Source: Candidatus Gastranaerophilales bacterium
GTDB taxonomy: Bacteria; Cyanobacteriota; Vampirovibrionia; Gastranaerophilales; Gastranaerophilaceae
Length of the DNA: 64,000 bases
Assembly (NCBI GenBank): GCA_944323995.1
Contig: CALUUN010000002.1
Span: 1-64,000 of the forward strand
Reading direction: 5' to 3'
Under the pieces are notes generated by a model. It was not told the origin of the DNA and searched no databases. It saw only the letters and a list, made by a program, of their open reading frames with translations. A program made the translations under genes and the position numbers. How positions within the stretch are numbered: position 1 is the first letter of the stretch; each line of letters opens with the position of its first letter. Below, piece after piece: positions 19,279 through 47,900 of this stretch.

Positions 19279-21288
19279 TTATTCATTAACAATCCCGAGG
19301 ACTCTGACAAATTCTTCTATTGTCGTAACCCCGCGTTTAATATGGTTTAAGCAGGATTGATTGAGTGTTATCATGCCGTTTGCAACAGCGGACTCTTCAA
19401 TTTCAAGGTCATGGGCGCCCTGTGCAATAAGTTTTTTAATTTCTTTTGTAATCGGCATAATTTCATAAACGCCAAGACGGCCTTTATAGCCCGTAAAATC
19501 GCATTTATTACAGCCTTTGGCGCGATATATAGGTGTTTTCATCAGTTTTTGAATTTCTTCTTCTTTGGCGCAAACCTGTCTTGCTTCTTCATAAGACGGG
19601 AAATATTCTTCTTTGCAGTCGGGACACAGACATCTTACAAGACGCTGTGCAATAACACCTGACAGAGTAGAAGATACCAGATAATCTTTTGCACCCATTT
19701 CAATCAAACGGGTAACTGTTGCGGCAGCCGAGTTTGTGTGAACCGTACTTAATACAAGGTGACCGGTCAAGGCTGCCGATATTGCGATTTCAAGGGTTTC
19801 ATAGTCACGGATTTCACCGACAAGAATAATATCAGGGTCCTGTCTTAAAATCGCACGCATACATGACGCAAAGGTAATACCTGCCTTCGGGTTAACCTGC
19901 GACTGGTTAATACCTTCAAGTTTGATTTCTATCGGGTCCTCAATAGTCGTAATATTGACATGCTCGTCATTTAAACTTTTCAATACAGAATAAAGCGTGG
20001 TTGTTTTACCTGAACCGGTAGGACCTGAGGTTAAAATAATACCGTTCGGGCAGCTTACCATATCTTTAATTTTTGCAAGATCATTATCCGTTGCGCCCAC
20101 AAGAACAATCTTTTTATCGTCCGCTTTCAAACTTACTGCAGGCGCAAGCACACGGATTACCATTTTTTCTTTGCCTGAAACCGAGAGCGTATTTATACGG
20201 AAGTCATACGATTGTTTTTTGTATTTAATTGAAAAAGTACCGTCTTGAGGTCTTCTGTGCTCGGCAATATTCATTCTTGACATAACCTTGAAACGGGCAA
20301 TTACTGATGATTCAACCTTTGACGGGATTTCCAAAACTTTTTGCAGCATGCCGTCTTTTCTGTAGCGGACAATATAACCTGTCAAACGCGGTTCAATATG
20401 AATATCGGAAACTTTGCTGTCGATTGCGTTTGTAATAATCTGGTTAACAAATTTTGCAACAGACCCCGTGGAATCGCGCAATTCCGCATCAACCTGTTCC
20501 CAGAGGCTTTCTTCAACCTCAATATCGGCGGCTTCTGTTTCGATCTGCTGGATAATCTTCTGCGTTTCTTTTTTCTGAGCGCTGAAAAACATCTCAAGAG
20601 AACTTTCAAACTCGTAGTGAGTCATTAAAAGCTGCTTGGGATTTTGTCCGGTCAGATAGATAATTTCTTTTAAGACATCGGGTTTTACCGGATGAACAAC
20701 ACCGATTGTAAGGGTTTTTCCGTCTGATGAAATCGGTATAACCTGATTTGCTTTAATAAAATCTTCCGGCAGAATGTTAACGAACTTATCCTGTCTTGCA
20801 AGCTGTTCATTGCTTACCATATCAAAGCCGGTCTGCAAATGAAGTATTGATTTTAATTGTTCAAGCGAAATAAAGCCCAGTTTAAAAAGGGTTGAACCTA
20901 TCGGCATTTTCTGGCGTTTACTTTCAGCCAGAGCCTGAAGCAGCTGGACATCAGTTATGTAGCCTTTTTGGATAAGCATTTCACCGAGTCGTATCTGCTT
21001 TTCTTCATGACCTTCATAAATACTTGATGCCGGATCCTTTTTCAAACTGAAAATTAATTCTTCCAGATCGTTTTCCGGAACCTGAATAAATTTCACCTGA
21101 TATGGGAAATAATCCTTTAAAATCTTATTAATTTCATCTTTATCGGAAACTGAACTCACCGCAACAAATAAAAACTTGTCCTTTACACTAATAGGAACAA
21201 ATTTGTTTTGTTCCATTAGTGTATCACTTATATGATTAAGTATTTCTTTGTTAATACTGTTTTTTAATCTGTTTAGTAGTTCATTCAT
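19279..21288 (-). CDS. pilB: Pilus/secretion assembly ATPase (PilB/GspE)
   Basis: A 669-residue hexameric traffic ATPase. Residues ~90-200 are a MshEN-type N-terminal domain (LGEMLIQKGYITDVQLLQAL). The C-terminal half has Walker A (LTSGPTGSGKTTTLYS), the Asp box, Walker B (DPDIILVGEIRDYET), the His box (LVLSTVHTNSA) and a four-cysteine zinc site (CLCPDCKE ... CNKCDFTG). It powers polymerisation of pilins, presumably including minor pilin-like proteins such as that at 46717-47793. The Shine-Dalgarno is weak. Confidence 0.93.
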   Translation of the reverse strand: MNELLNRLKNSINKEILNHISDTLMEQNKFVPISVKDKFLFVAVSSVSDKDEINKILKDYFPYQVKFIQVPENDLEELIFSLKKDPASSIYEGHEEKQIRLGEMLIQKGYITDVQLLQALAESKRQKMPIGSTLFKLGFISLEQLKSILHLQTGFDMVSNEQLARQDKFVNILPEDFIKANQVIPISSDGKTLTIGVVHPVKPDVLKEIIYLTGQNPKQLLMTHYEFESSLEMFFSAQKKETQKIIQQIETEAADIEVEESLWEQVDAELRDSTGSVAKFVNQIITNAIDSKVSDIHIEPRLTGYIVRYRKDGMLQKVLEIPSKVESSVIARFKVMSRMNIAEHRRPQDGTFSIKYKKQSYDFRINTLSVSGKEKMVIRVLAPAVSLKADDKKIVLVGATDNDLAKIKDMVSCPNGIILTSGPTGSGKTTTLYSVLKSLNDEHVNITTIEDPIEIKLEGINQSQVNPKAGITFASCMRAILRQDPDIILVGEIRDYETLEIAISAALTGHLVLSTVHTNSAAATVTRLIEMGAKDYLVSSTLSGVIAQRLVRCLCPDCKEEYFPSYEEARQVCAKEEEIQKLMKTPIYRAKGCNKCDFTGYKGRLGVYEIMPITKEIKKLIAQGAHDLEIEESAVANGMITLNQSCLNHIKRGVTTIEEFVRVLGIVNE

Positions 21289-46160: not shown

Positions 46161-46510
46161 TAATGATATGCCTGAAACTCCATCCCCCCTTGAGGGGGAG
46201 GGCTGGGGTGGGGGGCTTTAAGAGTGATATAGCGGGTTTCCGTAGGTTAGAAATTCCGGTGAAGGGTTGTCGGATTAGTAAATCCGACCTACTATGCTGT
46301 AACGGTTGCAAGATGCTGAAACAAGTTCAGCATGACAAATAATGATATGTCTGAAACTCCCTCCCCCCTTGAGGGGCCGGGGTGGGGGGCTTAAGCTGTA
46401 ATATAGCGGGTTTTCATAGGTTAAAACTCCGGTGAGGCGTTGTCGGATTAGTAAATCCGACCTACAATTCTATAACGGTTGCAAGATGCTGAAACAAGTT
46501 CAGCATGACA
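46161..46510. repeat. Tandem direct repeat, two ~175-bp units
   Basis: Unit 1 (46161-46339) and unit 2 (46340-46510) both start TAATGATATG(C/T)CTGAAACTCC, contain a CCCCCCTTGAGGGG stretch, the hairpin GTCGGATT-AGTA-AATCCGAC, and end with ATGCTGAAACAAGTTCAGCAT. They differ by small indels and substitutions. Non-coding, likely derived from a palindromic repeat family. Confidence 0.85.
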
Positions 46511-46525
46511 AGTTTTACGGCGAAC

Positions 46526-46691
46526 TAGCCTCTCCCCTTGTGGGAGAGGCAGAATTTCAACACGAGGAACGAGTGTTAGAAATTCAGGTGAGGGGTAATT
46601 TGAGAACTTCATGCATATTTAGACCCCTCACCCGCATTTGTAGTTCACTGCGTTCACACAACTGCGGCCTCTCCCACAAGGGGAGAGGCTA
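46526..46691. mobile_element. MITE-like element with 25-bp perfect terminal inverted repeats
   Basis: 46526-46550 and 46667-46691 are exact reverse complements. Each arm is itself a hairpin, GCCTCTCCC / GGGAGAGGC with a 5-nt loop. A second, inner pair (GGTGAGGGGT near 46586 and ACCCCTCACC near 46624) extends the palindrome, so the whole 166 bp can fold on itself. The element starts TA and ends TA, as mariner-type MITEs do. It sits 25 bp from the stop of the pilin-like gene. Confidence 0.75.
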
Positions 46692-46716: not shown

Positions 46717-47793
46717 CTATTCCGCCAAGCACACCACCTGAGCGCTGCTGGCGTTGCGGGTGTAGCCGTAGCTGCCCTGCCGGAAAGTACCCGTGGAGGC
46801 GAAGTAGCGGCTGTACGCGTTGGTCTTGTCGCCCTCCTCACTCGACCACAGCCAAAACGAGTCGCTGGGATAGGATATAAAAAATCCCATTGATACTGCA
46901 AGGTCGTTATCTCTTTGTCCGTTGCTTGTTGCATAATTTGTGTTTATTGTCGTGCCCGGGTACAAGTCTCTCGCTAATTGGTCTAACTGTTCCTGACTCG
47001 GTAAACTTGAACCCATATCTTTACATGCTTTTACTGCACCGGCCCAATAGTCATTTGTTCCATAGTCTGAATACAAGCAATATTGAAGGCCATATTTACT
47101 CATAAATGCTAAGTCATCAGGGTCACTTGTTGTTCCGTTTGTATCACAACCGTTCCATACATGTGCTGTCGGATAGAAAGGTGCTGTGAAACATGTTCCG
47201 TCTGATATACAAAATCCGCTTTTTACACCAGCAAGTGCTAATACGTTATCATTATTTCTTAAATCTTTTGATACAGTATTGGGATTCTTAAATCCGTCTA
47301 CGTCATATAATATTGCAAGACAATTTTCTCCCGTTACCTGATTACTAAATTGGTTCTGCGTACAACTTGGGTTGTATGCTATTACGCCGTTTACTCCGTT
47401 TGCAAATTGTACTGCTACCGTATTTGTATCCCAATCTTCCTGTCCGAAGTTCTTTGCCTTTTTAATCTTTGACATATCAACTTCTTCATCACCCCAGGTT
47501 ACGGTATCCGCAAAGCATGTTGTGATGTCATCGTTTTCACATATTCTTGTTATCTTTATATGTTTAGACAATTCATCAACAAATGCTTCTGTTGTTGTAT
47601 AACCTGCTAAGGTTCCTTGAACATTCATTACTCTTAATGCTTCACCGAGTTTTCTCTGAAATACCTGTGATGCTGTGTTCCATGCTTTTGTTTGATAATT
47701 CTGAATTAATGTCGGGATTGTCAATGCTGCGACTATTCCGATAATTGCAAGAGTTATCAGCACTTCCGCTAAGGTAAAACCTATCTTTTTCAT
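46717..47793 (-). CDS. Pilin-like protein with putative hypervariable lectin-like C terminus
   Basis: A 358-residue type IV pilin-like protein. It starts MKKIGFTLAEVLITLAIIGI: prepilin-peptidase site G4-F5, Glu at +5 and hydrophobic helix. The middle (~60-300) is cysteine-containing and extracytoplasmic. The last ~50 residues (FWLWSSEE ... SAQVVCLAE) resemble the C-type-lectin ends of retroelement-diversified proteins. Codons 321-350 end in C 23 times, never in A, unlike the AT-rich rest. Start 47793 with AAAGGAGAAGAAA; the longer frame is unlikely. It may be controlled by the XRE gene next to it. An ordinary minor pilin with a transferred end is the alternative. Confidence 0.85.
   Translation of the reverse strand: MKKIGFTLAEVLITLAIIGIVAALTIPTLIQNYQTKAWNTASQVFQRKLGEALRVMNVQGTLAGYTTTEAFVDELSKHIKITRICENDDITTCFADTVTWGDEEVDMSKIKKAKNFGQEDWDTNTVAVQFANGVNGVIAYNPSCTQNQFSNQVTGENCLAILYDVDGFKNPNTVSKDLRNNDNVLALAGVKSGFCISDGTCFTAPFYPTAHVWNGCDTNGTTSDPDDLAFMSKYGLQYCLYSDYGTNDYWAGAVKACKDMGSSLPSQEQLDQLARDLYPGTTINTNYATSNGQRDNDLAVSMGFFISYPSDSFWLWSSEEGDKTNAYSRYFASTGTFRQGSYGYTRNASSAQVVCLAE
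46720..46866 (-). other. Putative DGR variable region (VR)
   Basis: Codons 310-358 of the pilin-like gene. The segment is GC-rich with many NNC codons (TAC, AGC, GGC, CGC, ACC, AAC, GCC), what adenine mutagenesis of AAC codons in a template would leave. It ends in the reading frame's own CAGGTGGTGTGCTTGGCG end, and a perfect 9-bp hairpin (46667-46689) lies just beyond the stop. No template repeat or reverse transcriptase was recognised in the window. Confidence 0.55.
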
Positions 47794-47829
47794 TTTCTTC
47801 TCCTTTGATTTATAAATATGTATACCAGA

Positions 47830-47900
47830 ATTATACATCATGCAGTTACATATCTTTTACTGGATATTGTCCAGTAACATTATGTTAACATATCCAGTAA
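47830..47900. promoter_or_regulatory. Pilin promoter and XRE operator region
   Basis: Minus-strand -10 TATAAT (47835-47830) for the pilin-like gene. Just upstream lies TTACTGGA-TATTG-TCCAGTAA (47857-47877), a perfect 8-bp inverted repeat, with a third half-site TCCAGTAA at 47893-47900 and TGTTAACA between. It lies between the divergent pilin and XRE genes, so the small regulator probably binds here. Confidence 0.65.

Follow-up and report, generated by a model that had tools for sequence, protein, structure and literature searches.

In the diversity-generating retroelement (DGR) of Bordetella phage BPP-1 (mtd, avd, TR, brt), a reverse transcriptase (RT), an Avd protein and a template repeat (TR) bring about adenine-specific change in a 3'-terminal variable region (VR), and a hairpin/cruciform 3' of the VR is required (PMC3240598). 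Several DGRs can share one genome, as in Thiohalocapsa PB-PSB1, where a 7.95-Mb genome has 15 target genes with 21 VRs in all, tied to conflict-system proteins, and perfect non-adenine matches at remote sites served as the argument for action in trans (PMC10907252). Pilins have also been named as targets: Bacteroides DGRs diversify the tip pilins of type V pili, as relayed in a secondary source (Macadangdang et al., via PMC12632263), and "putative pilin structures" appear among DGR targets elsewhere (PMC6642488). Cyanobacterial DGR targets are mostly predicted to be cytosolic and linked to signalling (PMC7517822). DGRs as such have precedents, and so do targets that lie far from the TR, TRs that serve several targets, and pilins as targets.

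The stretch of DNA analyzed here (64,000 nt; hereafter the window) comes from a member of Candidatus Gastranaerophilales, the branch of the cyanobacterial lineage that lives in the gut and does not photosynthesize, and is part of contig C2 in a genome of 1.75 Mb (35 contigs, 99.9% complete). It carries a prepilin-type gene whose 3' end is very probably a remote VR of a genome-wide system of two DGRs. The ends of about 31 pilin-like surface proteins, encoded at scattered sites in the genome, are probably rewritten by the two RT systems, so that the cell can probably keep changing what these proteins bind. The system resembles that of BPP-1 in combining RT, Avd and TR with adenine-specific change of a 3'-terminal VR and an inverted repeat downstream of it; in contrast, it is chromosomal, comprises two cassettes and has about 31 mostly remote targets, which are prepilins, and the loops and distances of its candidate hairpins are unlike those of the GRNA type. 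Thiohalocapsa PB-PSB1 likewise has several DGRs per genome, and its targets too include ones identical to a distant TR at every non-adenine, whereas here about 31 prepilins are found in 1.75 Mb. The likeness to the Bacteroides type V pili, as far as the secondary source conveys them, is that a DGR diversifies a pilin end in a gut bacterium; however, those pilins are described there as lipoprotein-derived, while the N terminus here is of the GFxxxE prepilin class. Cyanobacterial DGRs belong to the same broad lineage and share remote targets and 3'-end VRs, although their description (PMC7517822) names neither pilins nor Melainabacteria.

What stands out is the scale, a 1.75-Mb genome with about 31 diversified prepilins; also of note is that, in a gut lineage, the DGRs are directed at prepilins of the GFxxxE class. 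The count exceeds the largest well-documented single-genome set that we found in the literature (15, in Thiohalocapsa PB-PSB1), and the genome is under a quarter of that size. A literature search of partial coverage returned no paper pairing a DGR with Gastranaerophilales or a DGR with a prepilin; within that coverage, the scale, the prepilin class and the serving of one paralogue family by two DGRs were not found described. Since two templates serve about 31 VRs in parallel within one cell, several questions become directly testable: by what means a DGR locates a remote target, why adenines are changed in AAC and hardly in AAG, ACG or AGC, and how the uncultured Gastranaerophilales of the gut attach to partners or avoid them.

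The window prepilin gene and its variable region

The target gene in the window (46717..47793, minus strand; ORF listing, PF07963 over cut-off) encodes a prepilin-type protein of 358 aa. Reading from an in-frame start farther upstream, at 47841, lengthens the ORF to 374 aa (46717-47841, minus strand), but the better start is the ATG at 47793, which is preceded by AAAGGAG and yields a product beginning MKKIGFTLAEV. The prepilin leader and hydrophobic helix, MKKIG/FTLAEVLITLAIIGIVAALTIPTLI (47704..47793, minus strand), scored over the cut-offs of both PF07963 (26.0 bits against 21.2) and TIGR02532, which bears out the canonical prepilin N terminus that an earlier note had read from the letters of the window alone. 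A PilB/GspE-type ATPase domain at 19303..20472 (minus strand; PF00437, E 2.6e-126) is a possible pilus/T2SS assembly motor for the prepilins, and ATPases of this type were found in the genome by PF00437 profile search, this being the sole assembly component searched. The best match to the window gene in a genus mate (G006:C3) has different neighbours.

The earlier note had also drawn attention to codons 321-350 (window 46744-46833), and its counts of 23 C-ending codons out of 30 and no A-ending codon were reproduced exactly with the 358-aa start; the 374-aa numbering gives 15/30. Codons 1-320 include 51 C-ending codons, with a maximum of 9 in any 30-codon stretch, and the excess at the end has a binomial P of 2.9e-13. 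Divergence by codon position, a template-independent test made among 18 DGR1 target genes, was 0.16/0.12/0.33 at positions 1/2/3 upstream of the VR, the usual pattern of a conserved gene, and 0.32/0.30/0.11 inside the VR, which is the reverse. Third positions were C or G in 85% of VR codons versus 31% upstream in these same 18 targets. The reversed pattern is produced by AAC to NNC rewriting, not by ordinary divergence or outside acquisition. Taken alone, a local shift in third positions would suit an origin in plain codon bias, in positive selection or in acquisition from another organism, but we give such origins next to no credence, given that the genome has RT, bAvd and a template that matches, that 32 copies are changed at template adenines, and that the upstream part of the window gene has up to 85% DNA identity to paralogues within the same genome.

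By alignment to TR1 (C19:22874-22993), the window VR has a core of 129 nt at 46729..46857 (minus strand), and the TR1 search matched the window solely at the VR itself (46727-46859). The VR ends 4 codons before the stop and is likewise 3'-terminal in the other good targets. Mismatches to TR1 occur at 21 of 42 template adenines and at 5 of 78 other sites (Fisher p = 8e-8), confirming the proposal that this C terminus is a DGR variable region, and the segment originally proposed, 46720-46866, lies near the aligned core. The accompanying expectation that mismatches would be confined to template adenines was not borne out in full, since this copy also differs at the 5 other sites and has three extra codons (a 9-nt insertion) in the (AAC)4 run. 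Because of these 5 non-adenine mismatches and this insertion, TR1 as assembled is not the exact template of the window VR; searches of the genome with the VR, TR1 and TR2 yielded no separate template for it.

The same departures from TR1 could mark a retired target, formerly rewritten and now evolving as an ordinary pilin gene. Elsewhere in the genome are pilins whose ends are similar but whose third positions are AT-rich in the ordinary way, which suggests that targets do leave the DGR system. Nonetheless, retirement is an unlikely account of the window copy, since its third-position signature is intact (23/30 C), its count of non-adenine changes falls inside the range of the other copies (0-9, degenerate copy excluded), and a palindrome follows the VR. 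This palindrome, GCCTCTCCCCTTGTGGGAGAGGC (46667..46689, minus strand), lies about 40 nt 3' of the VR and is a candidate DGR hairpin/cruciform, although it also forms part of a dispersed repeat.

The lectin-like end suggested for the protein fared less well and is weakly supported. PF07603 (Lcl_C) did match the VR-bearing domain, at E 0.02-0.08, which is below cut-off (E = 0.08 for the window protein), and hhalign of the C-terminal domain gave 67% probability and E 5e-5 to DUF1566-like proteins; the profile of this domain had no PDB match. Structure predictions were of low confidence (pLDDT 38.7 for the full protein with three relatives, 43.3 for the C-terminal 148 aa alone), and Foldseek with the 148-aa model, itself of low confidence, returned no match under E 1.5. 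The case for a C-type-lectin (CLec) fold of the VR-bearing domain therefore comes down to weak profile evidence, which hints at such a fold.

Two cassettes and about 31 targets

Profile search with RVT_1 (PF00078) found no RT on the window's contig and two RVT_1 proteins in the genome, both over the cut-off, 51% identical to each other and each containing LPIGNLTSQ and YVDD. The motif IGxxxSQ is a hallmark of DGR RTs. Adjoining each RT is a bAvd-like protein (PF22296 over cut-off in both; NCBIfam DivGenRetAVD E 1e-19 and 5e-13, below that model's cut-off). The first cassette, DGR1, is arranged on C19 as pilin target, bAvd, TR1 and RT. The earlier note, which saw neither an RT nor a template in the window, had concluded that the segment would be a remote target and had proposed looking elsewhere in the genome for a DGR-type RT and a template of ~100-150 bp; both expectations proved right, with RT, bAvd and TR1 all on C19. 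DGR2, on C8, is a complete second set consisting of an RT, then bAvd and TR2 on the opposite strand. The core features of a DGR are thus found together: a DGR-type RT, an Avd-type protein, an RT-adjacent TR differing from the VR mainly at adenines, and a 3'-terminal VR. TR1 is AAC-rich, and its 14 in-frame AAC codons allow on the order of 10^16 possible proteins; NNC never encodes a stop. By RT similarity, the nearest named relatives are MAGs of Candidatus Gastranaerophilales, one of them in the same genus, and an orthologous cassette in another genus (L084) comprises pilin VR, hairpin, bAvd, TR and RT. As an IMG/VR scan found no relative of the pilin, nothing points to a phage.

Across the genome, TR1 picks out 22 VR-like copies, spread over ten contigs (21 good, 1 degenerate), in which 403 of 918 template adenines and 100 of 1713 other bases are changed, and TR2 matches ten copies, with changes at 178/360 adenines and 28/950 other sites. 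Four of the TR2 copies (on C16, C4, C1 and C6) have 17-21 changes at the 36 adenines and none at the 95 non-adenines; because they match all 95 from contigs other than that of the RT, they point to action in trans. The degenerate TR1 copy (C1:149008) has 17 non-adenine changes and its VR in mid-gene, and with this copy left out the target count is 21 + 10 = 31. Wherever the 5' end of a target is complete, the gene encodes a prepilin, and [G/A]FTLAE is found in all except the degenerate copy; at three targets (C9:384, C17:337 and C16:70) the contig begins inside the gene, so that the N terminus is not visible. A copy at C13:7809, where the match to the window starts at the VR, was considered as another template and rejected, its VR being inside a pilin ORF.

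Pilin copies or silent cassettes could also exchange sequence by gene conversion, as they do in Neisseria pilE/pilS, a route to variation that dispenses with mutagenic reverse transcription; the many paralogues with shared blocks, such as HVWN...DDLAFM in targets of both DGRs, are what it would leave. However, conversion reshuffles existing variants and would leave change free to fall outside template adenines, and the presence of RT, bAvd and non-coding AAC-rich TRs further argues against it, making it highly improbable as the source of the VR differences; beside the DGR, gene conversion may act on the upstream part of the gene. The block in question, HVWN.CD...DDLAFM, lies upstream of the VR at about 47080-47200 (minus strand) in the window and in the corresponding part of the targets in L036, L037, L041, L043, L046 and L059. 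It is common to some DGR1 targets and one DGR2 target, and others have a different block, a distribution that reads, at the level of sequence, as modular exchange between paralogues, separate from the DGR.

If the window segment is a remote VR of the two-DGR system, the steps known from BPP-1 would apply, with TR RNA copied by an error-prone RT together with bAvd, template adenines becoming random bases in the cDNA, and the cDNA replacing the VR at the 3' end of the pilin gene. The change from AAC to NNC would alter only certain residues of the C-terminal domain and would never produce a stop, and RT slippage at AAC runs would also alter loop length. The prepilin would then be processed and assembled by pilus/T2SS-type machinery, and the cell would present a shifting set of binding surfaces, presumably adhering at the pilus tip. 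More tentatively, as a possibility that we would not yet favour, the whole may amount to a pilus receptor-like repertoire in which about 31 prepilins rewritten in trans by two RTs are accompanied by loop lengths varied through AAC slippage, recombined upstream blocks, and retired pilins that are frozen.

Two of the targets, L038 (C11:8274) and L039 (C3:79071), are damaged, one having TAG inside the VR (CAG to TAG) and one a large internal deletion; the deleted gene has lost most of its middle, and 145 aa are left with the prepilin start and VR intact. A close paralogue (L024, C4:76994-78091; 75% protein identity) has a C/G-rich third-position end (0.60) and matches TR1 over 27 nt only, and is perhaps the target of a lost or unassembled template.

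Codon context, length changes and inverted repeats

Adenines in TR1 targets changed at rates of 64% and 49% at positions 1 and 2 of AAC, compared with 2-16% in AAG, ACG, AGC, GAG and CAG, and TR2 gave the same contrast between AAC and ACG, AGA, CAG and GAG. This contrast may come from selection or from sequence context. Whole-codon length changes were present in six of the 22 VRs, that of the window included, and all lay among AAC codons of the template's second half, from which we infer slippage on (AAC)n. VR codon 9 varies as if derived from AAC (GGC, GAC, CTC, CAC and others), and TR1 (L030:10875-10994) has TAC there. The T is absent in half of the VR copies, including one with no other non-adenine change, and another TR allele may therefore exist. 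The idea that VRs departing from TR1 at this codon are older overall found no support (p = 0.64).

Strong inverted repeats are located 3' of most VRs, some of them resembling terminators or dispersed repeats. One inverted repeat, GCGCGATTTTTCCAGAAAATCGCGC, follows the C19 target and recurs without change in the other genus's orthologous cassette (L084); such conservation would fit the hairpin/cruciform required in BPP-1, though loops and distances differ.

Other pilins in the genome and in genus mates

The genome has 86 prepilin N-terminal matches. Among 20 other pilin genes sampled, third-position C+G over the last 42 codons was <= 0.45 in 17, and many of these 20 non-target pilins also have the AVC-type end motif; a rewritten and a frozen pilin set seem to coexist. 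At least 26 paralogues were present in each of the 15 genus mates searched, a DGR1-like RT in only some of the 15, and TR1-like copies in 4 of 11 scanned. Pilin 3' ends with C/G-rich third positions also occur where no DGR1-like RT match was obtained (L150, L151, L152, L154, L156 (G011), L157 (G009) and L160 (G013)), and these same genus mates have pilins with ordinary ends beside them. Either the RT was missed or lost there, or the signature outlives the RT.

A dispersed repeat occupies window positions 46161-46511, with a unit of ~175 nt containing CGGATTAGTAAATCCG and GC-rich palindromes, and adjoins many target pilins. It also lies near pilins in L030, L034, L037, L043, L044, L048, L050, L051, L055, L057 and L059, and could help to copy or recombine the target pilins.
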